Assembly: GCA_950295325.1 (NCBI GenBank)
Contig: OX485806.1
Location: 41,912,001-41,976,000 of the forward strand
Length of the DNA: 64,000 nucleotides
Reading direction: 5' to 3'
Origin: Polytrichum commune
Taxonomy: Eukaryota > Streptophyta > Polytrichopsida > Polytrichales > Polytrichaceae
The translations under genes were made by a program, and so were the position numbers. Below are positions 24,020-63,032 of the stretch, piece by piece (the stretch's first letter is position 1; every line of letters starts with the position of its first letter). The notes beneath the pieces were generated by a model, which saw only the letters and a list, made by a program, of their open reading frames with translations, was not told where the DNA came from and searched no databases.

Positions 24020-27000
24020 ATGGGCAGAAAGAAGGTTGCCCCTGAAAAATACAAGACAACTGGAATTAAAAAAAAATTAGATTTTGAAGACATAGGGGAG
24101 AACGCAACATTGTCGACGGTAGAAGAATCTGAAGGTCCGTCAACATCCCGGGGGCGAGGATCTCAATCTCGAGGAACATCGAAAGATATGGAACACAGTC
24201 CAACCCTGCATCCAATCCCGCATCGGAGGAGCAAAGTGCGGAGGACGAGGTTGAAGAGACGAGCTTGATGGAACCGGATGGTAAGTTTATGAAACATCTA
24301 CTCGATTATTGTGTTCGCCTCAGACTATGTGCCGCAGTGCTACAACAACTTCGTGTGAATGATCATTCGAGTAGGGTAGACAAGATTTAGGGACTGCCAC
24401 GGAGGAGGCGACGGTAATGGGTTTAAGGTTTTGGGTTTTGGTTGTTTAAGGTGTTTTCCACGTCTAAGTACCATGTCTAAGTGAGGCTGCTTGAAGGTGC
24501 CTGCAACGGCAGCCCCTTGGGGGCCTTTTTGTTTTTAGGTTCAGTACCTTGAAATGCAGGTGTTATCTTCGATATGGTGTACGATGCATTTATTTTTTTG
24601 GGTCTAAATACCATTGTGAGGCTGCACGAGGCTCTATTATGTTCGTGACATTTGTCTTTTCAGTGAGGCTGCTATGTTGTGGGACTGCATGCAGGAGGTG
24701 CCTGCAACAATAGCCTCTTTGGGTGTAATGTTTTTTAGATTTAGTCCCCTCAAATGCAAGTGTTCTCTCCGAAATGGTCTAGGAGGTGTTTGGGTTTAGA
24801 TTTTAGGGTTGTGGGGTTGTGGGGTTTAAGGTTTAGGGGGAAGCCATGCAATGCTTTCTTAAGCCATATCTTCTAGCCATTTCTTTGGTTTGCTTTAATA
24901 TTTTTAGACATTATAGATATTTATGTAAGTTCTCCATAAAGTCCAGAACCTCTTCCTTGGGATGTAGAAGTTATGGGCTCTGCTATGGAGGGTGGTCAAC
25001 TGGGAGGTATGCCGTTGACGGCATTAGGTTTCTAACCCATATATTCTAGGAAGTGCTTTGGTTTGGATTGAAATTCTAGGACATTGTAGATGCTAGAGTA
25101 GGCTTTCCAATGATGTAAAGACCTTCTCATTCAGAGTTGGCATGTCAAAGTTATGGACTCTGCAATATAGGGGGGTGAGCTGGGAGGAATGCCGTTGACG
25201 GTACTAGGTTTCTAACCCATAATTTCTAGGCAGTGTTTTGGTTTGGTGTGACATTTTGCAACATTGCAGATGCTGAAGTAGGCTTTCTAACGATGTAAAG
25301 ACCTTCTCATTCAGAGTTGGCATGTCAAAGTTATGGACTCTGCAATACAGGGTGGTGAGCTGGGAGGCATGCCGTTGACGGCACTAGGTTTCTAACCCAT
25401 AATTTCTAGGCAGTGTTTTGGTTTGGATTGAAGTTCTTGGACATTGCTGATGCTAAAGTAGGCTTTCTAATGATGTAAAGACCTCCTCATTCATGTAAAC
25501 GGGAGTTCGGAGGATATGCCGTTTGGATGATATTGTACTTATACAGCTTCTCTTTGATGCAGTCCGCCTTATGGATGTTGAGTTAAAGCTGAAGCTTCAC
25601 GACCTCGCCATTAAGGAGAGCGTTCCAACAACTTCTCGGTTGGAGAAGCTAAAATGACAACCAAAATAGAAGGGTGGTTTTTTTCTTCCCCTCTGCCGCA
25701 TGACGTCTCTTCCGGTAGTGAGATATTCCCTCAAGAACGATGTATTCCAGCTTGCAACACATTTTATGACCGATGGCTACATGGAGGGGAATGGATTCTT
25801 TTATGTTGCACTTGAGGACAATCATGGCCGCACCAATGACGTTACCCCGAGTGTGGTGGCGAAGTGGTCACCAGAGTGGAAGGAGGTGAATGAGGAATTC
25901 GAGAAGAAACTTCTATCAGATAATGACTTGAAGGTTTTTTTCTAATAAGATGTTCATGGTTTGGGATGGGAACCATCGGCTCCAGGCATGGATGTCCATC
26001 ATTAAGCAGTTTCATACTCATGATATCAATTGGCATTTCTGTGTTGAGGTTGTAATTCTTAACCCAAAGGGAGACATACCCTCAGTGATACCCGCTCTGC
26101 ACGAAGTGAATTGGTAAGATCCTTATCTTTGCTGTGAATGTTTGAAGTACTCATGAATGTTTAAATATATGTAGCATTCTTATATACATTTTGGCGTTGC
26201 AAGAAGAATCAGAAATCTCACGTTACCACAAACCTAGTACACAAGTTATTTCGCATCCAAAATCTTCCTTCACAGCCGCTGTCGTACTTCGAGGGTTTGG
26301 TCTCTTCAACTATTTTGGAGGCTGCAAGAAAGAAGCAGGGTGGAAAGAATCGCACTTGGTTCACCCTCACCGTTGAAGGTCTCAATGCGGTCCTTTATCA
26401 GGTAATGTCTAACTAAAATGTTATCGTGTCATTTCATTTTCAATGGGGAATTCATGAAACTCATATCATTAATTGTTTGAACTATAGTAAGAGATTGCGG
26501 ACGCTGCACATGTTGCTAAAGATAAGTACAAGATGAAAAATCCAGACTCTAGCAATTGGACGGATCGTAATGCAGAGGATTGGGTTACGAAGGCCGTGAA
26601 GAAGGTCGAGGATAAGCTTGTCGCTGAGCTCAGGAAGCATTTATCTGTTGCGGATCCTAGGCTAACTCCTGTTTTTCTAGAGGAAATAAAGGCTCATTAT
26701 GAAAAGTTCGATGAACTTGAGATGCTCCATGAAAAGTTGTATATACTAGCTACTTCCGCGATGCCTCCTAGGATGATGGTGAAGTGGCTCCAAAGGTGGA
26801 ACTCCTCTACGGCAATTCGGGATGCGCATTGCTTTCCGAAGGCTAGCTTCACCGACTTCAAGTTTCCGGATTGGCTCAATCGGGCAACATGGTGGGCGCA
26901 GGTTAGTATTCATCTCACATTTCATGTTGTCATTTGATTGACCCGTAATGAGTTCATTTGATTGCAACCAATAAGACAACATTTTTTTGTGCATGGCCTC

Positions 27001-29504
27001 AGATAGCAGTGGAGGCTGAAGAGCTCTTTTCAGGTGTTCTCACTGACCTTGGAGAAATTATTGACTACAATCCCGATGGCGAAGATCCGATCTTGACGAT
27101 CTTCGATTACGTCGAAGCGATGAGGTGTCAGCTTTGGGAGTTTGCCTTATTCATTGAGTTGGGTGGAGATAACGGTGCTCACAAGAACAACCCCCCGGAG
27201 AAACAACATTTTTTTGTTCAGGCTGTCCGCAGGGTTCTTTACAGGTATTTTCGGTACGTTCTCCTACCCATGAAGGCCATCTCTAAGGTACCACTTTTTT
27301 TCCCTAACTATTTGGATATCCATGTTCACTCCTGCAATTCTAAAAATATGGGATCCAATTCACTTTCACCAATGCGGGTGGTATTTGGACTGCCCGTTGA
27401 AAAAACCTCCTCCCTTTGACATTGCACTGAGGGACTCAATCCAACCTCTCTTACCATCTCCCGCTGCCTCAGTTCCAGCCTCACAGTCTCCCACAGCCCC
27501 CAAAGGTGGCTCCTCCAGAAGCAAAACGGCCACTAAAAGGAGTAGGCCTCGGGGATCCAAGCGGAAGGTTGTTGAGTTGGTTGAGGAGCCAATGGATGAA
27601 GATATTCGTGCAACAGGTAGTGATATCAGTGTTCCAGATATTGAACTTGCAGAGCCTCTCAGCTCTCATCCTCCACGTGCACCTGCTCCGAAGCGTATTC
27701 ACCTCGGAGTTCCTAGTCAAGCCAAGACGATCAGGTTTGTCCCACCTGCGGTGAAGGCAATGTTGTCCTCCCAGGCATGGACCTCCTCCTCTGCTTCTTC
27801 TCGGGTTCTCATACTCAATGACTCGTTCCATGGAATGTTGGATTATAAGGCGAAAAACAACAAATTCCCTTCCACGTACGATGACATGGTTGCTTTTCTA
27901 AGTGAGGTACATATCCAGCTTCATTCCTATTCAATTTAGCTAGCATGCCCCTAATCACCAATTAATTCTCTACTAAACGCTATGGTTGTTTTGAAACAAA
28001 GGTTGGAGCATCCAGGGAATTCTTCTTTTCAGGCAAGGTGGTGCAGAAGGGTGCGGTGGACCTCATTATTGCATAGTATCCCGATGGTTTGCCTGTCCCT
28101 GGCGTTTCCGAATTCCCAGGGCAAGTTCCAAATTGGAATAAGCAAGTTCCAAACTTCATCAAGTTCATCATTGGGTTTTGTCAAGGCTATCTTTATGACG
28201 ACGGGGCTCTACTTCTATTTTATCATGACAGCGTGCAAATCAAGAAGGAGGTCTTGAGCTTTCTCTACAACAACAATCTAGAGGTCAAGGAGAAATGGAC
28301 TGTCGTTAATTCTCTCCACCTCATTCACCCTATACATAACTCCAAGTGGGTCCGTAATTTTAACCATTTTCAGCATATGTATGTGTATTTGTTGGGTTTT
28401 GTTAAGGCAGCCATATATTAGGGGCAGATGTTGTGGTTTCTGATATGTGCTTCGGTAGCATATGTATGTGAATGTGATGAGTTAAGGGGAAGGCAGCCTT
28501 AGATTAGGGGCAAATATTGTGGTTTTTTATTTGAGGTTAGACTGTATATTGATGTGAATCTGCTCTTCAAGTTCTCAGTCCTTCATGACTAGAATCACAT
28601 TGCTAACAATTCGGGCAAATGGTTGTTGTCCAGACTCTGAAATTCAAAGCGATTGTGCTGGTTCGGTCTTTATCCACACCTTTGGTTAGGCAACCGAAGG
28701 AGTTTGTCATTTCTTCTAGTGACGAGTTTGAGGATGTTGACCTTGCAAGTGATGATGTTCTTTTCAACATTATCACCGCTGATATTGCACTCAAGCGCAA
28801 GGACGGTGACAAATTCTGGAGGGGCCCTAAAGAGAAGGCAATGTCCTTGCTTCAGCTTCTAATCAGTGGCCTTAGCCCTCCAGGGGGGATTATATGTGAC
28901 CTCACTCCTGGAACTGGTATGAGTATTTTGTTCAACATTCTTATCTCTCAAGACTTAGGCAATTCAATCACATGCGACTAATTCATTTATTTCGGTCTTT
29001 GTAGGTGCCTCGATTCTTGCAGCACAATCTTCTAACAGGGCAATAGTGGCACTTGAGGGAGACAAGGAATTGTACGAAGAACTCCTGCAGCCACTTCAGG
29101 TCGCAGGGTCGGACTCTCAGGGGGTTGATCCAACCCATTTTGTAGACCTTGACGATGACGATGATACCCTCCCTCAACATGGTGCAGTTAATTTATGTGA
29201 GTAAGTCTTTTGTCATTTTAAACTTATTTTTCGAATATGTTGCATTTAATTTGAAGGATTCTAACAATCGTCATTTGTCCTCTGTTGGTGCAGTCTGATG
29301 GTTCAAGGCCGACGCTCACTAGACTACGATTCACCTCCTAGCATGCGACTTCCTTGTTATGCAGAGGATATGGCAGTAGCTTATGCCAATAACTCCTCCC
29401 CTAGTTCTAGTGCCTCTTCTAGTCCACGTCTGAGATACGATCCTAGAGTACTCAGATTCATAGATCAGAGTGCTTCGGAGAGTGAGGATGAATTTATTCC
29501 CTGA
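24020..29504 (+). pseudogene. PM-B: ParB-like / permuted methyltransferase-like gene, multi-exon, disrupted
   Basis: Exons by comparison with PM-C/D: 24020-24280, 25563-26113, ~26199-26401, 26488-26901, 27003-~27906, 28002-~28346, 28634-28916, 29005-29200, 29294-29504. Exon 2 holds DGNHRLQAW (25965 onward), a ParB-like box. Middle exons are helical with two WW-containing ends. A charged, disordered stretch follows GWYLDC. The C-terminal part has a motif-IV-like block (DLIIA-stop-YPDG), a DDGALLLF strand, W-R-G-P-K-E-K, motif-I-like CDLTPGTG split by an intron, NRAIVALEGD, and a conserved tail with LPCYAED. Damage: TGA 25655, TAG 25667, frameshift ~25940, TAA 26488, frameshift ~27320, TAG 28074. 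The intron between R and YF in PM-C is absent here. The architecture resembles prokaryotic and phage ParB-methylase fusions; activity is unlikely. Confidence 0.7.
24850..25495. repeat. 180-bp tandem repeat in PM-B intron 1 (about 3.5 copies)
   Basis: TAGGTTTCTAACCCAT recurs at 25024, 25204 and 25384, exactly 180 bp apart. Each unit includes a short palindrome ATGCCGT-TG-ACGGCAT or a close variant. It lies in the intron 24281-25562. Confidence 0.9.
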
Positions 29505-30395
29505 CCTCCATTTTGTATTGGATTTTATTATTCTATGATATGTACTCCTTTGCATTTGAATCTAGTTTATTTAAGATGATGGCACATGATTATTAAATAC
29601 GAAGCACCGTTTTTATTAAAACACCCAAATTGAAGATAATCATTGTATAATATGATGTCGTCCATTTAAACGAATTTAAATGCATGATCCAACTTAAATA
29701 CAAAGTTCAAGGAATCCACTTAGAGAGTGACACCACATTCATAGTTAAACATATTACATTGTTAATGTAAACGAAGGGATTAATCTAATCGGATAGTTAA
29801 AGTAATTGCAACGTTATCATAATTCAGAATTTAACCTAATTACTTCATTGATAGAATTGCAGATATAATGCAATAGCATTGTGATCTCTAGAATTAAATT
29901 CTTTCCATATATCAATTAAGTGTGGATTTTGATTAGTGTCAGTACGTATTTCATCATGTGAGCTAGAGTACATGCCACAATATTAATATTTTAACTAAAT
30001 CAACAACCTTTTAGGGTTATTCACCAGTTAAGTGGCCACCTTAAGAGGCCCCTATTCAAGGTTATTCTCTTTACTTTCTGATTATGACCATAGACATTGT
30101 GTTTATTGAGGTACCCTACCCTCTATATAGTTTTTTAATGTATTCTGAAGTCACTATGTTTTCTGAATGTTAGTACACGTGATTGGATATTGTATTGATG
30201 ATGTCATGCTGATGTAAACCCTAATTTTGTATTTCATTAAAATATTTCTATGTTTCAAAAACCTATAAATGTTATGAATGGGAAAATGTTGGCCTATCTA
30301 CACGGTAATAGAGTACCTTAATCCTAATTTTTTCTAAAAATAGTTCAAATATATTCCCTAAATCCCGCGGATATAGGTGCATTTTTCCTCTCAAT
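29505..30395. other. Non-coding, AT-rich
   Basis: No gene, repeat or domain seen between the PM-B stop and the C-terminal end of MULE M3. Confidence 0.6.
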
Positions 30396-30399
30396 TCAT

Positions 30400-33300
30400 G
30401 TCTCAAATTGTGTTTTCTGCTCTCCGCTCTCCGCTCGCATACTAACTTTCCCGTCGAGGGGAGGACCCGATGTGTTGAAGAGGCGAGTGGGCGTGATGCG
30501 TTCTTTTTTAGGGAGATGAAAACCGGCATTCTCCAGCTTCAAGATCTCTAGACAAGTGAGGTTGGTACCAAGCTTGATAGGCCACACGGGCGGGATAGGA
30601 GGTCGTTCTTGGTCTGTAGAGAATTTGTCGACCCACTTGCAACGTGATCCTTTGACACAACGTTTAATGTTGTCGGGGCAAAAAAAAAACTTCTCGACTT
30701 TAGGTGTTGTAAATTTGTAATAGTTCTAAACTCTAAGGTATGCCGGTGCATGGGTGCTCTTGGAGTTGGAGAGTATTTTGGCAGTGCATTTCTCCTTGGT
30801 GACAGCATGCATGGCCCAACATGCCTTGGAGGAATTGTAAGGAACGCGAGAAATATGCCAGAGCTTCTCATCCACTTTGGATTCTTGTACAGTATTGACA
30901 CGGCGAAAATCCAAACCAGTAGGAAGGGGTGGTGGAACCTCGATCACGGTCGGGGAGGACTCCTCGACAATGGTAGGCAAAAGTGAAGCATGAGATCTTG
31001 TGGTTCTCTGAGTGACACGAGGGCGAGAGAAGTTGACGGTGTCGGGCCGGTGGGTTTCATTGTCAGCTCCAATGGGGGTGTCGGGCTTGCGTTTCTGCGA
31101 GCCGAATACATCGGCACCCTTGTGAGCCCAATATGGTGCCCACATTTGGTGTGAATTTTAATGACCAATAGAATTTAGATTTTTTTCAATTAATTAAACA
31201 TTCAAAAATAGTATAAAAAGAGTGAAGTTGTGTGTGTTGGGTGAAGTTAGGATTAGGGACCTCTCTAGGCTATGAAGTGGAAGTAGGAGTTGTGGGATTG
31301 AATTAACGATTAATCGACTAACGGTTAAGTGCTAAGCTTGAGATTAAGCGTAGTTGAGGGTGTTTTAGAATTATTGATTTAGTAGTAATGTGTTGTCAAA
31401 AGTTGGAATTCTGCCTTAAAGAAGGTAGAACTGGGCTTAGGATTGTGAGCTGGGTTTTGGTGTCCAAAAAAGGATGCGGGCCAAACCAAACAGGGGAGGG
31501 GAGCACTATTTACCCTAGGATTTTCCGGAATTTGGAAGTTGGTGACAGTTGCGGGCGGCCAGGAAGAAACTCTCTCTGTTCTGTTTGGTTAGCCAAGGAA
31601 AAGGCTCCGGGATGAGCCCCTGGCCAAATAGGGTAATGTGAGGGGAGCGAGCTAGAGGTGGATTCGAGAAGCTCAGTAAACAGCTAGCTTGATGTTGTGG
31701 AACGATGGCTGAAGAAAAAACAACTGACTGGAAGGGGGTCTGAGATGAATTTTGATGTTACAGAGCTGATTAAAGGAGAGAAACGCCTTCGAGGTGGGGA
31801 GCAGCTGAATTCAGTTGTCTCCAGACTGGGAGTCAGAGCAAGCAGCTTGCAAGAGAGGTGAAGGCCAACAATTGAATTTTGAGCTTCATTAGATCTAGCA
31901 GGAGGCGAGTCAAAAACCTGGATAAGGGGTGTTTGAGTGGAGACAAGCGGCGATCTGGGAGGAACAAGGGGCTCGGTGAGAAAACCAGGATCGAAGCTTT
32001 TACTAGGGCATTTGACGAATTCGCCAAAGGGGAATTCTGGCGGGTACGCGCCAAAGCTGACCACGGCATTGAGGGAATGTGGGTCGGAGACTAGAGTTGG
32101 AGGTGGGAAGGGTCAGGCAATACTCAGACAGGGGAGCTACCAGCTCAAAACCGAGGCTGCACCGTGGAGTTCAAGGGCGGCACTGGGCTTGAGCAGCCTG
32201 GCCAAATGTGGGCGGCAAATCCAACTGGGAACCTGGCCAGGGGACTGGGTGGACTGAGAGGCAAGACAACCAAGCTTTGAGGATCCGGGTCAATGAAGGC
32301 CAATGGCTAGCAGAACAGAAAGGGATGAGTAGGCGCTGGAATAGTGTTCACACCGCAATGCAGAGTAGGGATTGGAGATTAGGTAGTAGAGTGGAGTAGA
32401 TTAGTAAGTGTGGTGAAAACTAATGGGGTTGGAGTATTTGTTCAATACTTACAACCTTGTGTTCTTCTTGAAATAAAAGTGTGCGATTCATGTTGAAAGT
32501 GTCGGAGTGTCAAAAAGTCACTCTCAAGGATTGAAAGACTTCATACGAGTGCATGTGAGCCTGAGGCCCTCACCCGGATCACGACGCATAAGGGTGGGGT
32601 TTTAAGGCTGACAACCCTCGAGGTGGGGACTACGAGTACAGAATTCGTCTCCGCCAAGCATGTCGAGGAGAACCTTCTGTAGGACAGCGGGGTCACCAGT
32701 ACGTTGAGCACAACGTTGAGCGCATCAAAGCTTGAGTTTTTCTTTGCTAGGGCCATCGCCCCCAACGCCACCCTTTAAAAACTGATGGTACGCGACAACT
32801 TGGAGGAACGCTCGAATATAGTCATCCACAGTGGCCACGTAAAGATTGCCACCCTTGTTGCCGGACGCTTGAAGCCATTTGTTGTGAATGGATTTGGCAA
32901 GGTTGCAATTGGGCATTTGTGCGAATTCCTCGGCGGTCATGATTTTCTCCTGCAAAATGGAAAGGCACTGTAAAGAATAAGCAAAGCTTGGAAAAAAGGA
33001 TAAAACAAACAAGATAAAACAAAACAAACGCACCAATTTCATGAAGCCACCCCATTGTTGATATCGATAGTGCCAGAAGGCCAGCCAAAGTTGAAGGTGT
33101 TTCAGCCCCTCTTCGGAGGTGCAGTTAGATGAAGCCACCAGGCCTTGATGGCGAGGTACCTCGTCTCTGCCTCAAGCATAGAGGATGTGTCGCGATACTG
33201 GAGGCAAAGACGTTTATGTTGGTCTTGCAAGTTGTGCTTGATATAGAGTTTGGTGTGTTTCTCCAAAGACTGGGTCCAATGGAAGTAGCAGGTTCTCTCG

Positions 33301-35009
33301 CGCCCATCGATGGGAACCTTTGGATCTCTGGACCCGTAGACAATCCTCACGGCATTCCAATTGGCTTGCGCACTGTCCGCCATGAATCCTTTTAAGTGAG
33401 GCTTGGGAATTTCATGCCTAGCCATGACGTGGTTGAGGTTGTGCGAGAAAAACACTTGAGCATCCTTGTCCTCGGATTGAAAGTTGCAGCAAACGATGGT
33501 CATGACGCGCTGGTAGGTTCCGTCGTATACGTAGTTGGCCATGGTGGTTCACTTGGCGACGCGTTTGACATGGTCGGACATGATCCAAGCATGCTCGAGA
33601 TCCCCACCAAGTTGCATGCGCTTAACCAGGTCGACCCCACTACCAGGGCCGACCTCAGACATCTTGAAAACAAAAACTTTGTCCGTCTCGTCACCCTGGC
33701 CTGGGATTTGATAACGCTAGACATAGGCCCAGGTGCTGACACCTCGAAGCTTGGCGATGCCATCCATAACCCCTAACCTACGTAAGTATTTGAAAGTGGT
33801 AACCTTGTTTCAGAGGTGGGGGGAATTCAACTCCTTGCAACGATAAAAAACGGGCTCAAGTTCTTCCAAGGAAAGAAGTTGATGAGGATCACTATCATTG
33901 CGAAGGAGGAACTCACCCACAAGGTCCTTCTTGGCTTCAAGGACAATTTTGCTATGAGTGGCTTGGGGCGTTTGCTCGACGTGCTCCTCGATTAGGGCGT
34001 CGATACGCTGGCGGCTATCTCTGCAGTTTCCGACCTTGACTGGGTGGCGATGGTTGCCCAGATGAATGCACGCATGCTGAGTGGTGTCATTGCCGTGGAA
34101 GTAGAAAATTTTGGCGTGGCATGGTGCAATGCACGTGGGGGGCTCCTTACAGATCCTGCACATTAGAGTGGAGCCCAAAGGGAAGGGACCACCAATGGGA
34201 AAGGGCTCCTTTGTGAAGCCGTCGAAATGAGTATCATTGACCGGGGAGGTGCGATGAGCACGTTGGAGGTAGTCGCAAAGAGGATTTTGGCATTGGAGGT
34301 GGCCAACGCAACTGGAGGAGCGAAAAGCAATGCCCATGTCATTGGTGATATTGGTGGTCTGGGTTTTGGTCCAAACATGGCCGTCGTAGCGTTTGTCCAT
34401 GCCATCCATGGATTTGGCCTTCGTATGAGAGGACGAGATGCCTACTGGGGGGAAGACAAACATCCGATTCCCATCAAAGTGAGGCGGCAGGAAATTCACC
34501 TCTTCTATTTGTAAGGTGTCATAATCCAGCTTCTTGAGGATGGTTTTCCTACCGAGCATGGAGGCAAAAGTATGTAGACATTGAAGAATGGAAATGGGGG
34601 GTTTGGCAGGGGAAGGACAAAGAAGAGACAGAAGAGACGGGGTAAGAAAGGTGGAACGGAAGGAGGATGGAAATGGCTTGTGAATGGGAGTGGATACGGG
34701 GGGCTCATCACCATCGGAGGAATCGGAAAGATGTATGATAGTGTGCATACCAGGCCCACTCTTAGCTTTGACCAGGGGAGGAGTGTTGAAAGTGGAAGCA
34801 CAAGAATGGGGAGGGGTACGGATTTCCGTGGATACATTCGTGCAAGGAACTGGGAGTCCGTACACCCTGTATTTACCAGCGCAAAGTCCCCACATTGAAG
34901 ATCCGTTGTCGGCAACCCTAGGATTTTCACGCATGGTCAATGACAACAAGGAAGTAGCACTATCATAAATCTCACGTTCGACCCATATTGGGACGAAGCT
35001 ATTTTGCAA
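30400..35009 (-). pseudogene. MULE M3: transposase with 1.4-kb insertion, truncated SWIM end
   Basis: Minus strand, starting at 35009. N-terminal region and Cys/His module (YDGHVW, CVGHLQC, ACIHLGNHRHPV) to about 33810; DDE region with VYDGTYQRVMTI, FKGFMADSAQ and ERTCYFHWTQ (33750-33120); then NLAKSIHNKW, the conserved block after the catalytic core (near 32880). An intron matching that of M4 separates FMKL from the following exon. About 31170-32540 has no counterpart in M4 and looks inserted. The frame resumes at 31145 (QKRKPDTP) and runs to about 30423, where LGTNLTCLEI and LENAGFHLP match M4, but the SWIM finger itself is missing. Several frameshifts are present. Confidence 0.8.
31170..32540. 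other. Sequence inserted within MULE M3
   Basis: About 1.37 kb absent from the equivalent position of M4 (between MPGGDEW and KRKPD there). It is less AT-rich than its surroundings. No recognisable coding domain, clear terminal repeat or target duplication; short frames here are not convincing. Confidence 0.4.
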
Positions 35010-46860: not shown

Positions 46861-47039
46861 CCCCAACTCCCTTGTGAATTTTGGGCTCAAGAAGGAGTGG
46901 TAGCCTCTTTGTCAACACATGAGACATTTCTCCCATTCATTGAGCCTCAAGGTACAAAAGATTTGGCCTTGGCTTAAGGCTACTAGCCTTGGCCACAATG
47001 CCATCGTCTTACATTCGGTCCTCGGCAACTTGGCTTGGC

Positions 47040-48878: not shown

Positions 48879-48927
48879 CCCGCATTTTTGATAGCCATGT
48901 CTACCTCAAAGTGCTAGCTCAAATATT

Positions 48928-48947
48928 GGAACCCTGCTCTGATACCA
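48928..48947 (-). other. Primer-binding site, initiator tRNA-Met type
   Basis: On the minus strand TGGTATCAGAGC followed by AGGGTTCC lies 2 bases inside the 5' LTR. TGGTATCAGAGC is the standard plant retrotransposon sequence complementary to the 3' end of tRNA-iMet. This fixes the element's orientation. Confidence 0.9.
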
Positions 48948-48949
48948 AG

Positions 48950-49924
48950 TGTCGCAACCTTTGCTAGCCCCCCCTTGACCATCTTGCCAATTTTCAATTC
49001 TAGCAAAGGCTACGAGTGGCTAACCCTTCGCATACCGCCATGCTAATGGTTAGCTCCTCTAACCCCGGACCAATAGTTCATAGGAGGGAACCAACCCTCC
49101 TACTTTGCTTTCGGGACTCACCCCTTAATCGGTAACCCATTTTCCCAATGTGGACTTCCATCCATGGAAGTCCAATCCTATGTTGATCATCGCGTTGCCG
49201 GAGCAACACTACAACAACCCGAAGCATACTAGGCAACTATGGCCTCACAATAGGCCAAAGCCCATGGAGGCCTTGCCGTTCGGCCTCGGGTGGGTGAGGC
49301 CACACCACCTCACCCATATAAGCCTCTAGGACTTTACGCGGGGCCCCTACCCCACCGTCAACCAACCTCTTGTCTCTCCACCAAGAGTTGGGGCCAAGTG
49401 GACACTTTCCTTTAGCCGCTGGGCCTAGAAGCCCCCAGCAGCTTCAGACCATCATAACTTCCTTGTATGATGTCTGATACAAACAAGCGACCACTCCATC
49501 TTTATCTACGCTTCACGTAGATGCCGATGGACTCCTCACTTGCCCCATTGGGGCAAGTGGTGAGGAAGTTATTCCTGTTTGGACCTTGGCAGTCCCGGGA
49601 ATCACTCCCAGGCACTGCTGTACCAGGGCGCTGTCCCGGGACAGCGCCCCACTCAAATGGCCATAACTCCTAGCTCACACCTCCGATTGAGGTGTTCTTG
49701 AGCATTCTAGAATCACCACGCCATGAGCTATGCATAGCTCATGGCCTTACCCTTGTGCCTCCTAGTCTCCGTGGGTGGGAGGCGTTCCCAACGCCCGGGG
49801 CCCTCACCCACACTAGGATCACTTGGGCCCTCTCACCAACGGCGCCACAAGTCCCGGGTGTCACTCCGGGATCCCCCTTGTGCCCATGGTGTTTCGGGCA
49901 CTCCTCATGGAGAGGTGCGCGACA
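48950..49924 (-). repeat. 5' LTR of the gypsy element
   Basis: 975 bp, same orientation as 41889-42862. Ends GTGCGCGACA and is followed by CCATT, the target duplication. PM-C coding sequence resumes directly after. Confidence 0.93.
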
Positions 49925-52900
49925 CCATTATCCTCAACACGAAAGACAAAATCGGCTTGGTTATGCAAGTGATGCACAACATAAACAAGTAAGTGTGATT
50001 TTCAGCGTTTTTATTGTCTTTGAACATGTACCTGTATTCGATACATTTTCATATATGTATTGTTGTGTTTCAGGCACACCGAGGACTTCCATGTCAAAAC
50101 GAACACAGTCCACATGTTATTCAGAGTTAGAAAATATGGACAAATGGATCTTGAGAAACTGAAGGACATATTGTCAGCAACTGACTTTATGCGTTGTAAG
50201 CGTGGTCAAAAGAAAACATGGTACACCTTACCATTGAATGTTTTCACCTCCTTCATCTTTCAGGTTTGTGCACTTGTTCCTTTTCATTTCAAGTCATTTC
50301 AAGTCATTACTAAGCTTCAGTCATTTTGATTGAATGTATAGTTCGTTGACGTTACTGAATTCTTTTGTTTAAGGATTTTTTTGTAACATGCCTGTGTATT
50401 GTTTGCAGCATGAACTAACTTGTTGATAATTGGCAGCATGAAATAAGCATGGCTGTTGACGAAGGTGTCCGCTAGCTTATTGAGCAGTCTGATGGGGTTG
50501 TATCTCCTCCTCAAAAAGCGGCCGCGATGAAATCCGCAGTGGAGAAACAATGTATTGCATTGCGCCAGAAGATGGGAAAACTGGTCGCGGTTGCAAATCC
50601 AGACCTCACTGATGGTTGGTTTGATGAGGTTATTTGCATTCCTTGAATCCAGTGATTTATCATGTTAGTCATTCTAAATTTGATTTCAAAATATCTACTT
50701 TGTCTATTTTTAATGAGGACGTTGGCAATTGTCTAGATTGAGCGGCATTATACCAATAATTCAATATCTCCAGAGCTCAACTTAGAAAAACTTCAGCTAA
50801 TTGCTACGTCAAGAGCATCCCCGATTTCCAAAATCAAGTGGCTTCAATACATAAACGCCTCTGCCGCAACTCGAGAGGCAAGAAGAGTTCCTGCGAAGCG
50901 CGTTACCGAAGAAAAACTTTCAATTTTCCTAGCAAAGGCATGTTGGTGGGCTGGGGTATGAATATCTTGACACTTCAGTGTTTTCCAACAAAGTTTACAA
51001 TGTTCTTGCTGCATTCTAACTCATGTGTTAATTTTGAAATACTACATAAATTTGTTATATGGATCATATCAGTAGAAGTTTGAGAATTTGGAAAATTAAG
51101 CAAACACCTTTGCCCAAAGCTTGACCTCCAATGGTTGCTTTGGATTATGATAGGCCTAGTTGGTGCCCTTTTGAACCTAAACACTAATTGCAACCTCAAC
51201 ACATAACCCTTGAGAAGGTATCGTGATATTCTGGAACTAACCGGACTCAGCTGAGTGCTCCTTAACATTCCGCCGCCGCAGTGTGTGTATCGGGGCTGAT
51301 ACGTGCAAATCCTTTTTTTTTTTTTCCAAGTTGAATAATATGTCTTTGCTTTGCTTGTATCGGGGCCGATACATCCTCTATTGCATAATCAATTTGACCT
51401 CGTCCTTGACCATTAATTCGTTTCCTTGTTTTTCATTACTAATTTTTCATTTCATTTGGTAATTTTAATCCAACTCATTTATCAACTCGTTGATATTGTG
51501 TAATTTGTTTTCATTCAGATTTCCAATCATGCGACAAACATGTTTGAAGACATAGTTCAACAGGATCGCATCCCCATCGACATGTCTGTGTTTTCGGAGC
51601 CTCTAACTTTGGTTGCATATATTGAGGAATGCAGGATCATGCTTTGGGACCATGCATTTGTCTCGGTGTTTCGCAGTCACGACTGCTTTAAGAAAATTGA
51701 TGATTTCCAGGGATACAAGGGAACGAACCTTGTTGTGAGAAGAGTCCTATTCAGGTGTTTGCTCTGTTTTCCTTTCATCCTTTGATTTGATACTTCTATT
51801 TCCCTCTTTATCAATTCCAACTTTTTCATATTCTTATGGCCATCATTATTTTCCAGGTTCTTCAAGTATGAGCTCCTCCCAAAGAAAGCGATTCTGAAAG
51901 AGGACTTGCCGGTTTTCTTGAGTACTTGGTTGGACCGGTCCAACGCTTCATGCATGTTCACAGCTGCCCAGAAGAGGACATGGACGACTTCGCACCTTAC
52001 TTCTGGCGCGTGGTATCTCGATTGTGCTACACATTACACCCCACCTTTTGAGATGGAATTGAGGAAATCACGCGAGGCTATTGGAGAGTCTGGAGAGGAG
52101 ATGGAGGACTTGAAGGGCATCCATGATGACAACGACAGGGCTAAGGCACTCAAGAGGTGGATTGAAGAGGACCGCAAAAAAACCCTCAAGGTCAAGGAGG
52201 CAGAAGAAAAGGCTCACCTGAAGGAGTTGGAGAGGCAGCAGAAAGCAACTGCAAAATCGACGAAGAAAGGCAAGAAGAAGGTGACTACTCCTGGAGAGGT
52301 AGAAATGATAAGTCATGTGCAGCCTAGTCCAACCGTGGACTCTGGTTCCCAGATTCGCTCAGTTTCAGCTAGGGGTACTAAGAGGGACACCTCATATGAG
52401 CTTCTTTCCCAGTTGCCGATTGTTGATCTCACAGAGGACACCAATTGCATGAATGATGAGTTCATTCTAAACTCTTCATTGTTTGAGGTCCTTGGCGGTG
52501 AATCGGGCAGTTTGTCACCCCTCTACGATGACCTCAAAGCTTTTATGTCTAAGGTATTTTTGTTTTTATTTGCCCATCTGATGTGGTTCTCTTTTGCAAC
52601 TGCTAGTATTACTTGTCCAATTCTGTTTGCTTTTGAAATTGTTACGTTTCTTACATGCATTGAATTGCTCATTGAGCAACATTCATCTGATAAAAGGCGT
52701 GCGCACAAAGGATCTTCTGGAAACCACCCTTGTGTGGATTTGATCCTTGTGGACCAACCAGAAGGTCTCCCAATTCCAGGTATTTCGAACCCTATTTCAT
52801 CTGTGCCCTTATGGAACCAGGATTCTAAGGAATGGCTGGAGCCCATTTTTTATTTTGCCGACCAACACCTCCAGGATGATGGTGCATTCATCATCCTTCA

Positions 52901-54199
52901 TCCGTTTCGATTGAGCACAAAGTCAAACATACTCGGATACTGCAAGTCATACGGTTTTGAAATCCGCAAGGAGTGGTGAGGGATGAACCGTCTGCATTTG
53001 ACATCAGCAGTATATCCGACATCCACTGTAAGTGATTTGATCTTGAAATGCATATGTTTTTGTTTGTCATATATTTGTTATTATTTTTGATTGTAATCTT
53101 TGCCCTTTGTTCTTGTCCAGCATGCCCAGTTTGGATCTTCACACATTATTTGATTCTCCATGGACATTGTCAATCTTGTCTAATCTTCTTGTTCGAATGC
53201 CAGACCATGAGATTTGGCATCTGTTTGGCGGTGAGGAGTCTTCCAGGGGTTCCCAAGTCTACATTTTCTTTTCAGCCAATCCCTGCTCTTGACCACCACG
53301 GAGTAGACTTTGCCAGAGATGACATCCTCATGAACCTGGTCACGAAAGATGATCAGCTCATGAATGGCAATTTACCTTGGCGAGGCCCTCGGGAGAAGTC
53401 CGTCTTGCTCAGGCAGATGCTTATAGAAGCATCTACCTTTCCTGGGGATCTCGTGGTTGACTGCACTGCAGCCACTGGTTCGTTTTTTCAACCTAAACCC
53501 TACTCAGTCTCAGTTTATTTGTACATTCACTTATCACCTAAATCATGTTCACTTCTCTAGGGTCGTCCATACACGCTTGTCGCAATATCAACCGACATAT
53601 TGCTGCGTTGGAGCCGGATGAGGAAATCTTCAAGGCCTTACTGGCACCCCTCATCCGGGCTTCACCTACTCTTTCGCCTCCTCACCTGGATCCACTCACC
53701 ATCGTGGATGACATTGATGGCGAGGAAATTGAAGTTGAGCGGATCGTGAAGAAATCCCGATTCAGTAAGTAAGTCTAAACGGTCAAGTATGCATTTCTAT
53801 TGAGATCATGTTGATTTATGTTACTTCTTTTTGTTGTCACTTCTTATTGAAGCCTTTCATTTTGCAGGTGCGAGATCTTGATTTCTCCACATCATCGACC
53901 TTTTTTTTGTAGGCCGACATTTTTCCCAAGCCCTCCTAAACCCTTTGAGTTGCCTACATATGCCGAAGAAATTGCTTTTTGATTTGCAAGTGAGGACATA
54001 CGGAATCCCACTTCGCGCTCCCGTTCTCTGTCTCGTAGAGGCTTGAGTTTTCTAGATCTAGAAGTTGTTCAGTGTGATGAGGAGGAGTGAACGCATTCGT
54101 ACACTTTTTCAATGATTGATTGCGATTTTAGGCGAATGTTGTGTTGAATAAATGACCCTAAACCATTAGTGTCACCTCATGTAACTTGGCATTCAAGTG

Positions 54200-55171
54200 T
54201 GTCGCGCACCTCTCCATGAGGAGTGCCCGAAACACCATGGGCACAAGGGGGACCCCGGAGTGACACCCGGGACTTGTGACGCCGTTGGTGAGAGGGCCCA
54301 AGTGATCCTAGTGTGGGTGAGGGCCCCGGGCGTTGGGAACGCCTCCCACCCACAAAGACTAGGAGGCACAAGGGTAAGGCCATGAGCTATGCGTAGCTCA
54401 TGGCGTGGTGATTCTAGAATGCTCAAGAACACCTCAATCGGAGGTGTGAGCTAGGAGTTATGGCCATTTGAGTGGGGCGCTGTCCCGGGACAGCGCCCTG
54501 GTGCAGCAGTGCCTGGGAGTGACTCCCGGGACTGCTAAGGTTCAAAGAGGCATAACGTCCTCATAACTTGCCCAAATGGGGCAAGTGAGGAGTCCATCGG
54601 CATCTACGTGAAACGTAGATGAAGATGTAGTGGTTGATTGCTAGCAATGGACATCATACAAGGAAGTTATGATGGTCTGAAGCTGCTAGAGGCTTCTTAG
54701 CCCAGCGGCTAAGGGAGAATGTCCACTTGGCCCCAACTCTTGGTAGAGAGAGAAGAGGTTGGTTGACGGTGGGGTAGGGGCCCCGTGTAAAGTCCTAGAG
54801 GCTTATATGGGTGAGGTGGTGTGGCCTCACCCACCCGAGGCCGAACGGCAAGGCGTACGTGGGCATTGGCCCATTGTGAAGCCATAGTTGCCTAGTATGG
54901 TTCGGGTTGTTGTAGTGTTGCTCCGGCAACGCGATGATCAACATGGGATTGGACTTCCATGGATGGAAGTCCACATCTAGGAATGGGTTACCGATTAAGG
55001 GGTGAGTCCCGAAATCAAAGTAGGAGGGTTGGTTCCCTTCTATGAACTATATGGTCCGGGGTAAGAGAAGCTAACCATTAGCATGGGGGTATGCGAAGGG
55101 TTAGCGCTCGTAACCTTTGCTAGAAAGCAAAATTGGCAAGATTTTAAAGGGGACTAGCAAGGGTTGCGACA
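54200..55171 (+). mobile_element. Solo LTR 5, 110 bp downstream of PM-C
   Basis: TGTCGCGCAC...GGTTGCGACA, with target duplication AAGTG at 54195-54199 and 55172-55176. Confidence 0.95.
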
Positions 55172-57810: not shown

Positions 57811-58290
57811 TGAAATTTTGCAGGGATCACCATCCATAGATCTCATTCTTTCGGAGGAGCCCTCAATGGAGAACCATAATGTTCCATTGGCGGTTCCTAT
57901 GGTATGAAATGGGGCATTGCTTCATCTCTTTTGTCAATAGATGTTTCATTTATTCGAGTTCCCTTCTTTGTTGTTCCTTGTAATTTTAGTCGTTGCCTAA
58001 TATTTTGGTGGTTACCCTTGTAGAATGATGCACAAGTTGCAACCGACTTTTTGTGTCCTCTTGATGAGTCCAACCCAGAGGAGACTGAGCTCTTGATTCG
58101 GAGATCGCAAAAACAAGACTCTAATGTTGTGATTCACTGGCTTCGAATGAAACCTCTTCATAAGTCGCGTTTCTCTATCCCATTGTGCCGCTTGTGATGT
58201 CTTCCACTTGTTCGTCCCATCAACGAGGTTGATGTCGCTTGGTTGGAAAATGAGTCCGTCATGGGTTACCGTGACGGTGACCGAGCCTTG

Positions 58291-58307
58291 TAGGGTTTAG
58301 GGTTTAG
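58291..58307. repeat. Telomere-motif insertion in a PM-D exon
   Basis: TAGGGTTTAGGGTTTAG lies in the middle of the ParB-box exon, between GYRDGDRAL and NLVVSPYNN when aligned with PM-C. It introduces TAG and shifts the frame; removing two 7-bp units restores the downstream frame. Confidence 0.8.
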
Positions 58308-59639
58308 AACCTTGTTGTCTCTCCCTACAACAACCTCAATGAGGTACTCGATGTCTCCGATGACATCCACAATTCTTGGAGTTCCTTATGGCAAGATGCT
58401 AATGAGGAATTCGACGCCATGCTCCAAACTGACCCTGACCTTGAACACCTTTGTGGCAAGGTGTTCTATGTGTGGGAGGGTAATCACCGTTTGTCGGCTT
58501 GGTGGAGGCACACTAATAAGCATCATTCACTAGATAAAGGTTGGCATATCTCTGTTGACTGTATTGTCGTGGATCCAAGAAATTGCACCGCCGTCTTCTT
58601 GAATGCCATGAATGACATCAATTGGTAAGTTCAGGTTTCTTTCCCTTGTTTCTTTTCCTTTTCTGTTTTCCTTTTATGTTTCATTGTTTTTGGGACCCTC
58701 ATTATTATTATTTTTAGGTCCACGGAGCACGATCATGTTAAGGACAACCTCCCCGCCAAATTGCTTCGCATTCATACATTTGCAAAAATGAAGCTTGAGG
58801 ATTTCAAGGACTTCATTTTTGTTGACGACTACAAGATGTGCGAGGCTAAGATGGAGAAAAATCTTACTTGGTATCCCCTCACATTGGACATCTTCGTCAA
58901 GTTTTTATACAAGGTAATTTTTCTTCTCGCTCTAGTTTTTTCCTTTCTCATGTTTTGTGCATTTATCCTTACACACATTTATGTTTGTTTTAGAGAGAGA
59001 TCTCCAATTCGGCGGATACTGCTGCACGGTTATACCGTGAGGCCACTCCTGAGACTCTAAGATCTGCTCATGGGATTTGGGATGCTATGACAAAAGCCCA
59101 GGATAGATTGATCAAAAGTATTCGATCTTGGAGCTTTGAAAAATTCAACTCCGTCGCCCACAAGGACAATGGCGATGACTTCTTCCAAGAGGTACTCCCT
59201 GCACCTCTTTAATTTTTGTTTGCTTCCACCTTCGTGCTTTTCTACTTGTGCTTTATGTATATTCCCTTACATTACACTATTCATTTTTGCAGATTGACCG
59301 TCATTTTTCCACCTTCCTCGTCCCGGATATGACTATTGAGAAACTGCAAAAGGTGGCAACTACACATGTGGATGCTTCCTTTAAGGCTAGATGGCTTCGG
59401 TGGTGGAATTCCCCCGCCGAGGTCAAAACCATAAACAAGTTCCCCTCTTCTCTTCCTCTTCGCGAGAAAGCCCTCGATGACTGGCTTCACAAAGCTTCTT
59501 TTTGGGCACATGTGCTCCAATACCTTATACTTTTTAATTTGTTCTCTTTCACTCTTTGTCATTTCTAACTGTATGTTTGTTGAGGGTGACATTGCCTCAT
59601 TTCAACCTCGAGGGCATTATGACTATATTTTGACCTCAA

Positions 59640-60340
59640 GGTTGTAAAGCTTGTAAGGGTAGATAGGCTCAACTTGTACGTAGTAGTTTTTTTGATATGT
59701 TGTATTAGTTGGGTATGCACATGACCTCGACCCTCTTGGATCTGAGAGGGTCTTCGTTCATAACAATAGGACTAGATTTTGACTTCAAGGTTGGGAAGGT
59801 TTGATGTGTAAATTGGTTCAATTTCAGTGGACTAGTTTGGTTGATAGTGTGAGGGTAGGGCATTAAGACCAGATTTTGGCCTCAAGGTTATGAAAATTAT
59901 ATGTGTATATAACGTGAATTTGTTGTGGACTAGTACGGTTGATAGTGTTGGGTAGGACATTAGGACCATATTTTGACTTCAAGGTTGGGTACATTGAGTG
60001 TGTAGTTAGGGTCATGTTGTGTGGACTAGTTTGGTTGTGATGTTGAAATAGTTGGGTGTGCACTAGAGAACGACCTTCTCGGATCCAAGAGGGTCTTTTG
60101 TTGAGAGTATTTAGACCAGATTTTGATTCCAAGGTTGGGTGCCTAGAGTGTGTATATAGGTTCAACTTGGGTGGCCTAGTTGGGTTGTGATGTTGAAATA
60201 GTTTGGTGTGTTCTAGAGGACGACCCTCTCATATCCAAGAGGGTCTTTTGTTGAGGGCATGAGGACCAGATTTTGCCTTCTATGTTGGATACTTTGTATG
60301 TTTAGTTAGGCATTAGGACCAGATTTTGACCAGAATTCTA
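59640..60340. repeat. Repeat-filled PM-D intron with palindrome family 2
   Basis: The intron 59512-60363 repeats the phrases of intron 1 and holds palindrome family 2 at 59729-59752, 60072-60095 and 60222-60245. Confidence 0.8.
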
Positions 60341-63032
60341 ACTTCATGTTTGTCTCATTTTAGTTGGAGAAAGGGGTTGAGGGTGAGATCGCCTCATTTG
60401 AAAATGAATGCTCCATCGACATCGCCTGGGTTTCTACGGAAGATCTTTTGCAACCTGCTCATTTTGTCGAGCATTGGAGGCTCATTTTGTGGGACAAGGC
60501 TTTTCGGGTGTATTTTGATGACAAGGGAGTCTTGAAATTCACCAAAGGACTCGATCTCATGGAGTTCGAGGAAGGTCCCATAGCTATCAAACGCGTTACT
60601 TACCGGTAATCATTTTTCTTCTTCTTCCTTTGTTTGTTTTCATTTTTTTAACTCCATTTATTTGTTCTCATGTTCTCCAATGTGTAAGTACATTAATCGT
60701 GAGCTTGTCGTAAAGAATGCTATACTTTCTTTGTCCTTACCGTCATTCCTTGACGACTGGATCAATGACAACTCAAATCTTTGTATGTACACGACCATAT
60801 AATTTGTAAAATTTCCATGCGTGCATTTGGTGTCTGGTGGTTGGTACTTGGATTGTTCTCGTGGATTCGTTCCCGATGTAGAAGAACCCCTCTACGACAG
60901 CCTCACTTCCTCTGCCCCTAAGGTAATTGAATTGGAAGAAGAGCTGGAAGAAGATGAAAATCCGGCTCCTCCCACCAATGACAAGGAGGTTGAATTGGTG
61001 AAGGCTAAGGGCAAAGGCAAGAGGGTGGCCTCCAATCAAGTTTCCACCCGTTTTTTCACCAAGGCCTCCGTTTAGCGCACTACAGCTCCAGCTACCACGG
61101 TTGTCGGAAGTCCAACGGCAACTCCTTCTGCCCTTGCTCGGGACCATGTTCCAGCTCATTTCCATAGCGGTGTCACCATTCCCTCCGTGCCGCGCAAGAA
61201 GAAGGCCGTTGCCCCTGATACCTCCCCAACTTCTTCTAAGAAGTCGTTTTCTGTCTTTTTGATTGAGAATGTCGACATGGGGGACCTCATAGAGGATCTC
61301 ATGCGGTCTAAGGTTCCCCCTCCGGTTTACCGCCACATCCAAGAATTCCTTACTAAGGTCAGTGCGACATTATTCTGTTTACCCGTTCTTTCATTCTAAT
61401 TCAACACTTGTTTTCTTATATTTTTCTTTGGATTTTTAATTTGCAGGTTGGAGCGGGTTGTACTCGTCCTAATAGCAAGCCTAAGGTGCACACTGGGTTT
61501 AATATACTCTTCGTAGATGTGTTGGAGAACCTTTCTATGCTGAGCATCTCGTCATCATCGTCGGATGTTCCTCAATGGAACAAACGTTCTTCGACTTACT
61601 TTGAGGTTTTGTTTGCCTTTGCAAACGCCAACCTCCATGACAACGGCGTTCTTGTCTTTGCACACGCCTCTGATCCTGATGTGTCTAGATCCATACATAA
61701 CTAGGCACATACAGAGGACTTCTATGTTGCCGAAGATTGGTTTGGCATGAATGACCTTGACCTCTAATCGCCCATTAATCCATCTGATTTGGTAATTTCT
61801 TTCTTGCCTCATCATTTTCTATTCTTATCTTTTTTTTCCTTGCATTTTTGTATTCCTAATTCTACCCTTTTCATTTCTTGCAAACTCGCAAGTTCTTCAT
61901 CAAGGTGCTCGTGTGTAAGGAATCTGTTTTGAATGTCCGGACCTCGGACTTCGAAGACATGGGTTACAATCTCAAAAGAGATGGTTGGCTCAATAGCTTC
62001 GCCGATTCGAAGAACCAGTCGATGAGGAAAGACGGGGTGCCTTGGAGAGGTGCTCCTGAAAAACGCCCCGAGTTTTTCTCCATCATTTTCTCCTCCTTCA
62101 CTGACAAGGACGATATTATCATGGATTGGTAATATGGCGTTGGTTGGTTTTCAATCTCCTTCTTCTTCATGTCTTAGTTTTTTTATGTTTTGCTTTCTTT
62201 TATGTTCTTTCTATTTCCCAATCATTCCCTTATGCTTACCTTCTCGCATTTTGTTCTTCTAGGAGGTTCCATCATTGCATGTCGATCCATTCAACGCCAT
62301 ATTGTGGCGCTTGAATCGGATATCGACATCTTCAAGTCCATCCTCCTCCCCATGCATGAGACTGAGCAAGAACACACTTCTCAGGATGCTACCCCAAAAC
62401 GAGGGTCGGTTTTTGCTCCTCCTCCCCGGAAGATGGCAATGCACAATTTTCATTTGTTATGTGCGTAAGTTTGTTCTTGGCTTCTAACTTGCTTGCTTGC
62501 ATTTCTATCTTCTCGATTCCGGATTTTTGGCATGTGCTATTTTTTTTTGTTTTCTAGTTCTATGTTTTCTGAGTTCATATTGAGAGCCCGATTCGTGTCC
62601 TTAATGCGGACATGTTTACAACCCCTTCGACAACATTTAAGCTCCTTTCGTATCCTGCTGACCTTGCCCATATTTTGGATGAAGTACCGTCCCCACCTCC
62701 TAGTCGCACCCGCCCTTTCAACAAGCTAGTTTTGGATTTCCTAGACATAAAGGCCGACCATGGTGAGGATAGTGATAGACATGGTAGTCCAAGTTCTTGA
62801 CTATGCCTCGTGCATTTGGAACCTCCATCTCCTATGTATTGTTTATGTTTAAGTTTTTTATAATTTCATTTGTTGAATTTTCATTTCCTTTTTTCAAACC
62901 ACATTCAACTCCTCCTTCATCTTATTTTGTTGTTTGATTTCAATTGCTCTTGAAGGTTCACAGCTTGTATTTGTACATATGTTCAAGTAGTTGGTTGATA
63001 GGTTCAACTAGTTTGTTTTTTGGCTGGAATTT

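Follow-up and report, generated by a model that had tools for sequence, protein, structure and literature searches.

Transposon-borne genes with predicted ParB-like and methyltransferase-like folds and an altered motif IV in the Polytrichum commune assembly

Introduction

The Ectocarpus transposon Sola1-1_Ec32 carries an accessory gene for a ParB-methyltransferase (ParB-MTase) protein, and the part of the report available to us states that such transposon proteins occur in red and green algae and puts forward that they bind, and modify, the transposon carrying them (PMC12477816). ParB-MTase transposon genes are already known as a kind. Here, we examine a stretch of 64,000 nucleotides (hereafter the window) from the Polytrichum commune assembly GCA_950295325.1 (contig OX485806.1, positions 41,912,001 to 41,976,000, forward strand), in which three related genes, PM-B, PM-C and PM-D, are each carried by a DNA transposon and are predicted to join a ParB-like domain to a permuted MTase-like domain. 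As far as Sola1-1_Ec32 is described in that part of the report, PM resembles its gene in combining a ParB-like with an N4/N6 DNA methyltransferase domain, in lying on the strand opposite the transposase and in belonging to a large DNA transposon. It differs from the Ectocarpus and algal genes in its streptophyte host, its 10-bp target duplications (Mutator-like), its altered motif IV and its repeated palindromes, a separation drawn against the algal descriptions only, to the extent that this source gives them.

VANC, the anti-silencing accessory protein of the Arabidopsis element VANDAL21, offers a second comparison: the accessible portion of PMC5735166 describes short motifs, differing between related elements, that are gathered in tandem repeats within introns and non-coding DNA. 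PM is similarly an accessory protein of an element with terminal inverted repeats (TIRs) whose non-coding DNA holds short repeated motifs (in D-, C- and s-type elements, the core motif being absent from the PM-B and 577-type elements), and it differs in domain content, since neither a ParB nor an MTase domain is described for VANC in that portion. As a previous reading of the window from sequence alone (the sequence-only reading) had noted, ParB-methylase fusions are known in prokaryotes and phages, for example Bce_0392 in the section of PMC5512222 that reviews bacterial ParB-methylase activity, and two such fusions occur in the present assembly (see below).

Among the papers listed by the literature searches, the Ectocarpus paper was the sole report of such transposon genes and none concerned land plants, which does not prove their absence; the available part of PMC12695648 likewise holds nothing on ParB-MTase transposon genes. 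New here are the streptophyte (probably land-plant) host and a Mutator-like element. As regards the host, the NAC-domain family PF02365, which is not known outside streptophytes, has 28 exon matches in this genome, 14 of them to the second half of the domain, a low number that suits a bryophyte. Also new are a putative active site that is altered and, judging by its substitution pattern, under selection, and parS-like palindromes, repeated in D-, s- and C-type elements, that share the core TCGGNNCCGA and have arms particular to each subfamily.

Two predicted folds in three homologous genes

The sequence-only reading held that the three genes align exon by exon, and six-frame reading bears this out: each contains a DGNHR/EGNHR box, WW-type helical exons, a WYLDC block (GWYLDCPLKK in PM-B, AWYLDCATHY in PM-C and GWYLDCSRGF in PM-D), a motif-IV-like exon, an R-G-x-x-E-K stretch, and a motif-I block that is interrupted by an intron and lies upstream of R-x-I-(V/A)-A-L-E-x-D. 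All three genes are on the plus strand. PM-B (25679-29504) has its ParB exon at 25679-26113, followed by helical exons, a WYLDC exon, the motif-IV exon at 28005-28340 and RGPKEK/motif-I exons at 28619-28918 and 29007-29201, with a possible first exon at 24019. The ParB exon of PM-C (41552-54092) is in two pieces, 41552-41888 plus 49925-49989, and is followed by helical exons, a WYLDC exon from 51855, the motif-IV exon at about 52680-53033 and RGPREK/motif-I exons at 53204-53479 and 53563-53769. PM-D (58165-62800) repeats this layout, with its ParB exon at 58165-58622, helical exons, a WYLDC exon, the motif-IV exon at 61447-61788 and RGAPEK/motif-I exons at 61893-62129 and 62265-62414. Identity to PM-C is 44% (PM-B) and 34% (PM-D) over the ParB exon, and 35% and 32% over the MTase part. 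We confirm that these are homologous, intron-rich genes, and the homology is far beyond chance because PM-C matches PF01555 above its cut-off and the same exons recur across the genome. All three window copies are broken: PM-B by a frame shift in the ParB exon (about 25931-25938) and a TAG within the motif-IV exon, PM-C by three inserted TIR elements, a TAG upstream of the ParB core and, in the MTase part, a TGA, and PM-D by several stops. Unlike them, many other listed genomic copies have exons without stops.

For the N-terminal part, structure prediction and fold search of the ParB exon support a ParB/sulfiredoxin (Srx) fold, as the earlier naming by motif had it. The model (pLDDT 85.3, pTM 0.82) retrieved ParB 7bm8_A first in Foldseek against the PDB, with sulfiredoxin, Noc and PadC also in the upper rows (probability up to 1.00), while VIA gave Z 9.2 (rmsd 2.0, 92 aligned) and the leading matches in a viral structure library (best E 0.0072) were phage proteins resembling ParB. 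The G-x-x-R nucleotide-binding box reads G-N-H-R in the alignment rows that cover it, except for a different last letter in loci L003 (S) and L040 (Q). Among 20 aligned ParB-exon members, none matched Pfam ParB_N at E up to 1. Five of the 20 did match Phage_tube_C (best E 0.00032), which we judged to be chance because the fold searches put ParB or Srx in their top rows.

The naming of the C-terminal part as a permuted beta-class MTase is likewise supported, by Pfam, by sequence matches to solved structures and by fold. PF01555 (N6_N4_Mtase, cut-off 26.7 bits) was matched at E up to 10 by two of the three window MTase parts, that of PM-C reaching 28.9 bits, and a 577-aa open reading frame (ORF) at a related locus, L017, reached 32.4. 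A 25-row MTase profile aligned with DpnA (5hek, E 1.1e-7), CcrM (3.4e-4), MboIIA (0.0021) and a rotifer N4C enzyme (0.049) among solved structures, and with DNA methyltransferases of PHROGs (best E 1.7e-5). The model of this part gave 37 fold matches at E up to 0.001, with beta-class enzymes first (best E 7.7e-8), and a VIA Z of 13.6 (rmsd 4.0, 187 aligned). The predicted order, motif IV before motif I, holds both in the exon reading and in the alignment to beta-class folds.

Some of these results temper the two-fold assignment: the best Foldseek E value for the ParB exon model was 0.031, with none at 0.001 or better; best VIA Z values of 7-8 are common among models without clear relatives; and the model of the MTase part is weak overall (pLDDT 43). 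With these set against the matches above, we consider it very probable, from the models, that PM proteins join a ParB/Srx-fold domain to a permuted beta-class MTase-fold domain. The sequence-only reading had opposed this naming to homology with an unrelated transposon protein, an opposition that does not apply as worded: the protein is transposon-borne, yet is predicted to have both proposed folds.

Genome-wide, PF02195 matched only on the small contigs C10, C12 and C23. We rejected these Pfam ParB matches as members of the PM family, as they lie on small contigs and those of C10 and C12 are canonical prokaryotic-type fusions. The two ParB-MTase fusion ORFs in question, L116 (C12:28600-30700) and L117 (C10:13000-15600), have the look of prokaryotic DNA and both keep DPPY; L117 apparently holds an intein-like insert. 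PM and the prokaryotic or phage fusions share the order ParB, motif IV, motif I, and the MTase part of L116 aligned with the 25-row PM profile by hhalign (E 1.4e-5, probability 80%). In contrast to PM, L116 and L117 have the canonical DPPY and no introns, and the ParB part of L116 gave no profile alignment with the PM ParB profile. A recent phage or virus origin of PM is disfavoured, on weak evidence: tblastn with the MTase protein (E up to 1) found nothing in the phage collection, a pattern search of viral contigs gave no match, and one of the genome contigs collection gave three matches, none confirmed, both pattern searches being able to detect close relatives only.

PM as the second gene of Mutator-like transposons

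The span 24020-62800, which the sequence-only reading treated as one gene-family unit, cuts across three nested transposons. The outermost, which carries PM-D, begins at 17962, runs through the end of the window (64000) and has its right end at 65142, beyond the window, as seen in locus L025; it measures about 15.3 kb once the two nested elements are subtracted. Its left TIR is GGACGACACTCCTATGTGAGCGGTGAGCGG, and its flanks GGGCTTGCTC and AGGCTTGCCC are identical at 8/10 positions (computed). The PM-B transposon (19701-30452) sits within the transposase-like gene of the outer element and has TIRs with GAGCGG repeats at both ends; its flanks GTCAAAGGGA and GTCGAGGGGA are also identical at 8/10 positions (computed). 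The PM-C transposon (34991-56105), which comprises about 11.1 kb of its own DNA and three TIR elements inserted into it, lies in or beside the 5' part of the same transposase-like gene, has TIRs beginning GGACGAAGCTATTTTGC and GGGAAAAGCTATTTTGC and is flanked on both sides by ACCCATATTG (10/10). In a random control, 118 of 200,000 random pairs matched at 8/10 or more.

Each element has a minus-strand transposase-like gene, read from ORFs. That of the PM-B element (20935-23558) shows a weak SWIM match and a DDE-like region in alignment, that of the PM-C element (35450-39223) belongs to a unit found again elsewhere in the genome, and that of the outer element (30463-34980) is split by the PM-B element, its 3' end resuming at 19244-19690. 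The PM-C element is disrupted by a TIR element of about 975 bp (40577-41551), by a composite insert of the same TIR elements within its ParB exon (41889-49924), and by a third TIR element (54200-55171). Inside the composite insert, an integrase-like coding stretch is recognisable by eye on the minus strand at 44097-44513.

We searched the genome (408 Mb, 64 contigs) with parts of the PM genes, whose match lists overlap in part. The ParB exon gave at least 150 matches (1100 candidates), the MTase part at least 184 (best 150 of 2106 candidates), and the motif-IV exons of PM-B and PM-D at least 150 each (1026 and 990 candidates). PM relatives are a large family, in the hundreds, dispersed over the genome. 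To judge informally from the matches listed for the PM-D query, many of which lie on contig C4, the contig that holds the window, D-type copies may be concentrated there; C4 might be a sex chromosome or another repeat-rich chromosome. Upstream of the 577-type PM gene at L017, at 845-1764, we noticed kinase-like ORFs by eye (HCDLSFTN ... GDWGSA), for which Pfam gave nothing at E up to 1.

Six additional copies (c1, c2, c3, c4, s1 and s2) were set against the window by DNA comparison. Copies c1 and c4 share one unit with the PM-C element, namely the minus-strand transposase-like gene, then the tandem array, then the end of the plus-strand PM gene; over both genes, c1 is 97.5-98% identical to that element except for a 337-bp piece at 95.8%, and c4 matches it in DNA pieces at 89-98%. 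The s1 element repeats the transposase unit, that half being 92% identical to the PM-C element over 4.3 kb, and its PM part matches in DNA only in short 3' pieces, with about 74% protein identity to PM-C in the ParB exon. The near-same transposase half and strongly different PM half in this pair (L021, L022) look as if modules had been exchanged or the halves evolved at different rates. The 10-bp duplications are identical on both sides (10/10, by eye) in PM-C (ACCCATATTG), c1 (TATGACAAAC), c4 (GTCTTCTAGT) and s1 (GGCCTCTCGC), and all six elements with both ends seen (the three in the window, c1, c4 and s1) have GAGCGG repeats at each end. A point on the other side is that, within the fetched 20 kb, c2 and c3 matched the window in the PM part only.

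That PM is carried by a DNA transposon is virtually certain: in the window elements and in c1, c4 and s1 it is the second gene of the element, lying within TIRs and 10-bp duplications and on the other strand from the transposase-like gene. The earlier description as a plant multigene family stands as regards the family, the copies being homologous, and fails as regards host genes, the copies being transposon-borne and of a kind already published in eukaryotic transposons; a host gene family is disfavoured because of the TIRs, the target duplications and the hundreds of scattered copies. PM might instead be a host family captured repeatedly by unrelated transposons, in the manner of Pack-MULEs, and without a role in the element. 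Intron-rich genes and a large copy number would fit such capture, which we nevertheless regard as very improbable given that the position opposite the transposase-like gene is constant in the elements seen whole and that dN/dS (the ratio of nonsynonymous to synonymous substitution rates) is about 0.1 between diverged copies.

As to superfamily, TIRs with a 9-11 bp target duplication are features of Mutator, to which the TIR transposon VANDAL21 belongs, and a 10-bp duplication such as the one found here, together with TIRs, points in that direction. Domain evidence is less favourable: the transposase-like exons searched had no Pfam match over cut-off, and none to the MULE (Mutator-like element) transposase domain PF10551, which was also missing from the window among the genome matches listed (best 150 of 271). 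The SWIM finger of the PM-B transposase-like gene scored 16.7 bits, below its 19.6 cut-off, and hhalign against MULE proteins of the same genome was equivocal: one set gave E 0.22 and placed the second D and C-x-x-H in register, and a smaller one gave E 0.23 without that register. We therefore call the elements Mutator-like and not Mutator, since the duplication points there while PF10551 is unmatched, SWIM is sub-threshold and the MULE profile comparison is equivocal.

An altered motif IV that appears to be conserved

The catalytic form of motif IV is (D/N/S)PP(Y/F/W). We read it by pattern in 67 PM copies, a non-random sample made up of 60 pieces picked down the match lists and seven earlier loci. 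The fourth letter was E in 53, D in 8, K in 3, and Q, N and Y in one each, i.e., acidic in 61/67 and aromatic in 1/67, and the third letter was P in 65/67. DPPY is thus mostly replaced by D-x-P-E/D in the copies read. Outside this sample, the window copies read VDQPE (PM-C), a stop followed by YPD (PM-B) and VDVLE (PM-D). The sole aromatic copy is L017 (DIPY), whose nine near relatives, also outside the 67, have D at this position; we rejected DIPY as an ancestral intact form and read its Y as a change in one copy because of these relatives. The copies read retain motif I together with the acidic residue that follows it, so that S-adenosylmethionine (SAM) may still be bound.

Substitution rates were estimated for the motif-IV exon in 59 sampled copies, in pairs that share copies and are not independent. 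Median dN/dS was 0.22 at dS 0.1-0.2 (135 pairs), 0.09 at dS 0.2-0.4 (13 pairs), 0.08 at dS 0.4-0.8 (2 pairs) and 0.11 at dS 0.8-1.5 (111 pairs); in younger pairs (dS under 0.1) it was 0.49, and 102 of the 116 pairs lay below 1. In the ParB exon, values of 0.10-0.11 came from three pairs at dS 0.5-0.7, and of the other pairs listed six close ones gave 0.34-1.31 (one undefined), two deep ones gave 0.22 and 0.28, and the remainder were saturated and yielded no value. These ratios indicate that the sampled PM exons are under purifying selection, the altered motif-IV exon included, and that the motif IV change is old and kept.

PM could still be an active N6-adenine/N4-cytosine methyltransferase that modifies its own transposon, as has been proposed for the Ectocarpus and algal proteins; the accessible part of PMC12477816 gives that same reading. 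The PF01555 score above cut-off, the fold match to M.BceJIV, RsrI, CcrM and the rotifer N4C enzyme, and the retained motif I with its acidic residue would all agree with it. We nonetheless find this activity unlikely, as the fourth letter of motif IV is aromatic in a single copy (L017) of 67, with D in its nine near relatives, and as the two canonical fusion ORFs of the same assembly keep DPPY. The altered motif IV, in an exon that is nevertheless conserved, casts doubt on methylase activity, and on this sequence evidence PM is probably not an ordinary methylase.

Palindromes shared by diverged PM elements

The inverted-repeat list contained one 24-bp palindrome recurring around PM-D. Palindromes were counted as exact repeats (arm 9, spacer up to 4), then as families with arm 6-7 and by the core TCGGNNCCGA. 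Ten copies of CCCTCTCGGNNCCGAGAGGG, with 0-3 mismatches, lie in and around the PM-D gene between 57052 and 63462 (at 57052, 57490, 57733, 59731, 60074, 60224, 63035, 63165, 63304 and 63443), most of them within or beside tandem arrays. A PM-C intron holds GTATCGGGGCCGATAC (51357-51372), and a 170-bp tandem array of the PM-C element (39902-40551) carries the bare core at 40044, 40212 and 40382. The core occurs 5 times in PM-D's own DNA, 4 times in PM-C, 15 in c1, 9 in c4, 10 in s1, 18 in s2, and once and twice in the c2 and c3 parts, compared with shuffled-sequence means of 0.02-0.10 (0.06 for the outer element's own DNA). It is absent from a neighbouring repeat, PM-A, from the inserted TIR elements and from the stretch with Copia-like ORFs. 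Around the core, the arms are specific to the subfamily: CCTCTCGG in D, GTGTCTCGG in s and GTATCGG in C. We name GTGTCTCGGNNCCGAGACAC, CCTCTCGGNNCCGAGAGG and GTATCGGNNCCGATAC as candidate recognition sites.

Genome counts were 997 for the s-type, 2252 for the D-type and 49 for the C-type palindrome, as opposed to 0, 0 and 1 for the reversed-pattern controls. The first 50 of the 997 s-type sites (all on contig C1) and 46 of the 49 C-type sites lie no more than 10 kb from a PM exon.

Several observations speak against a special link between the palindromes and PM. The core is absent (count 0) from the PM-B element and from two 10-kb 577-type loci (L017 and L018), so that the palindromes are not universal; proximity to PM exons is expected for any part of the repeat; and the D-type clusters listed are mostly not within 10 kb of a listed D exon (exons being the best 150 of 990 candidates). 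Many palindromes stand in tandem arrays, and counts within arrays are for that reason not independent. The C-type core hits are mostly bare cores in one array (3/4 in the window, 13/15 in c1 and 6/9 in c4), and the longer GTATCGG palindrome occurs there once, twice and once, respectively; moreover, the core was chosen after viewing the D- and s-types, which leaves the C-type as the sole hold-out. Palindromes as such are not special, because the inserted TIR elements contain some too, though of other kinds. The distinctive point is that one core is common to diverged PM elements and to several different arrays.

That point also bears on whether PM is core transposition machinery, i.e., a subunit that would work alongside the transposase-like protein in binding the ends or capturing the target, with the palindromes a by-product of tandem repeats. 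The presence of GAGCGG repeats at either end of all six elements with both ends seen and the recurrence of the two genes together would suit such a subunit. This alternative still seems fairly improbable, because several distinct arrays, and DNA outside arrays, share a single core that the control DNA used lacks. Between PM-C and s1, the transposase halves are 92% identical, while the PM protein, with about 74% identity over the ParB exon, and the palindrome arms differ together, a contrast that fits co-evolution of PM protein and site, in two element types only.

Two other repeats share the window. The PM-A gene (6790-11114), in a repeat that ends at 14286, appears to belong to another mobile family; its DGQHS box and its FGGTKP...YVDLND stretch are reminiscent, by motif, of a ParB box and motif I. 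It has at least 123 genomic matches (1125 candidates), 36 of them listed at 97-100% identity with the window copy included; for two of its ORFs Pfam gave nothing at E up to 1, and NCBIfam yielded nothing meaningful. The 13.5 kb of this repeat, from 790 to 14286, hold 31 copies of another palindrome, GTTTGGGTCGNNCGACCCAAAC, and an ORF resembling NIF/FCP1 phosphatases (11936-12781; PF03031, E 1.2e-15), which is also present in copy L027. Further along, Copia-like polyprotein fragments are visible by eye on the minus strand at 14608-17546.

Proposed role and implications

The best explanation overall, which we favour with modest confidence, is that PM would be a self-recognising, VANC-like transposon accessory protein, acting as an anti-silencing or transposition factor. 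The ParB-like domain would bind the parS-like palindromes of its own element, perhaps as a nucleoside triphosphate-dependent clamp that spreads, and the MTase-fold domain would keep SAM and/or DNA contact without ordinary N6-adenine or N4-cytosine transfer. The complex would then mark the element and keep it accessible to transcription or transposition, either by countering host silencing, as VANC does on VANDAL elements, or by aiding transposition. Such recognition in cis is suggested because a ParB-fold protein is encoded by an element with repeated palindromes, as with ParB at parS. PM shares with ParB-parS and Noc a predicted ParB fold, the G-x-x-R box and palindromic sites repeated in cis, and differs from them in that Pfam ParB_N is unmatched. 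Whether PM binds the palindromes is, on sequence grounds, nearly an even call that tilts slightly towards no, and a role in anti-silencing as distinct from help in transposition we consider somewhat unlikely.

A fuller version of the self-recognition reading can be put forward only tentatively, and we lean towards doubting it. A prokaryotic ParB-methylase fusion would have turned into a self-recognition system, in which a clamp loads on parS-like palindromes and spreads and the rebuilt MTase fold serves as a non-methylating DNA or SAM reader or carries out new chemistry. Arms and PM would co-evolve while the transposase half stays near-constant, and the system would protect the element from silencing.

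The predicted sites make the idea of self-recognition testable with one protein and one set of oligonucleotides. If it is true, a eukaryotic transposon would find itself by means of a bacterial chromosome-partition clamp, at sites that can be read directly from the sequence, and this would be a second, unrelated solution to the problem that VANC solves in Arabidopsis. It would also mean that transposon-borne "methyltransferase" genes need not methylate, which would bear on claims of N6-methyladenine (6mA) and N4-methylcytosine (4mC) in plants.

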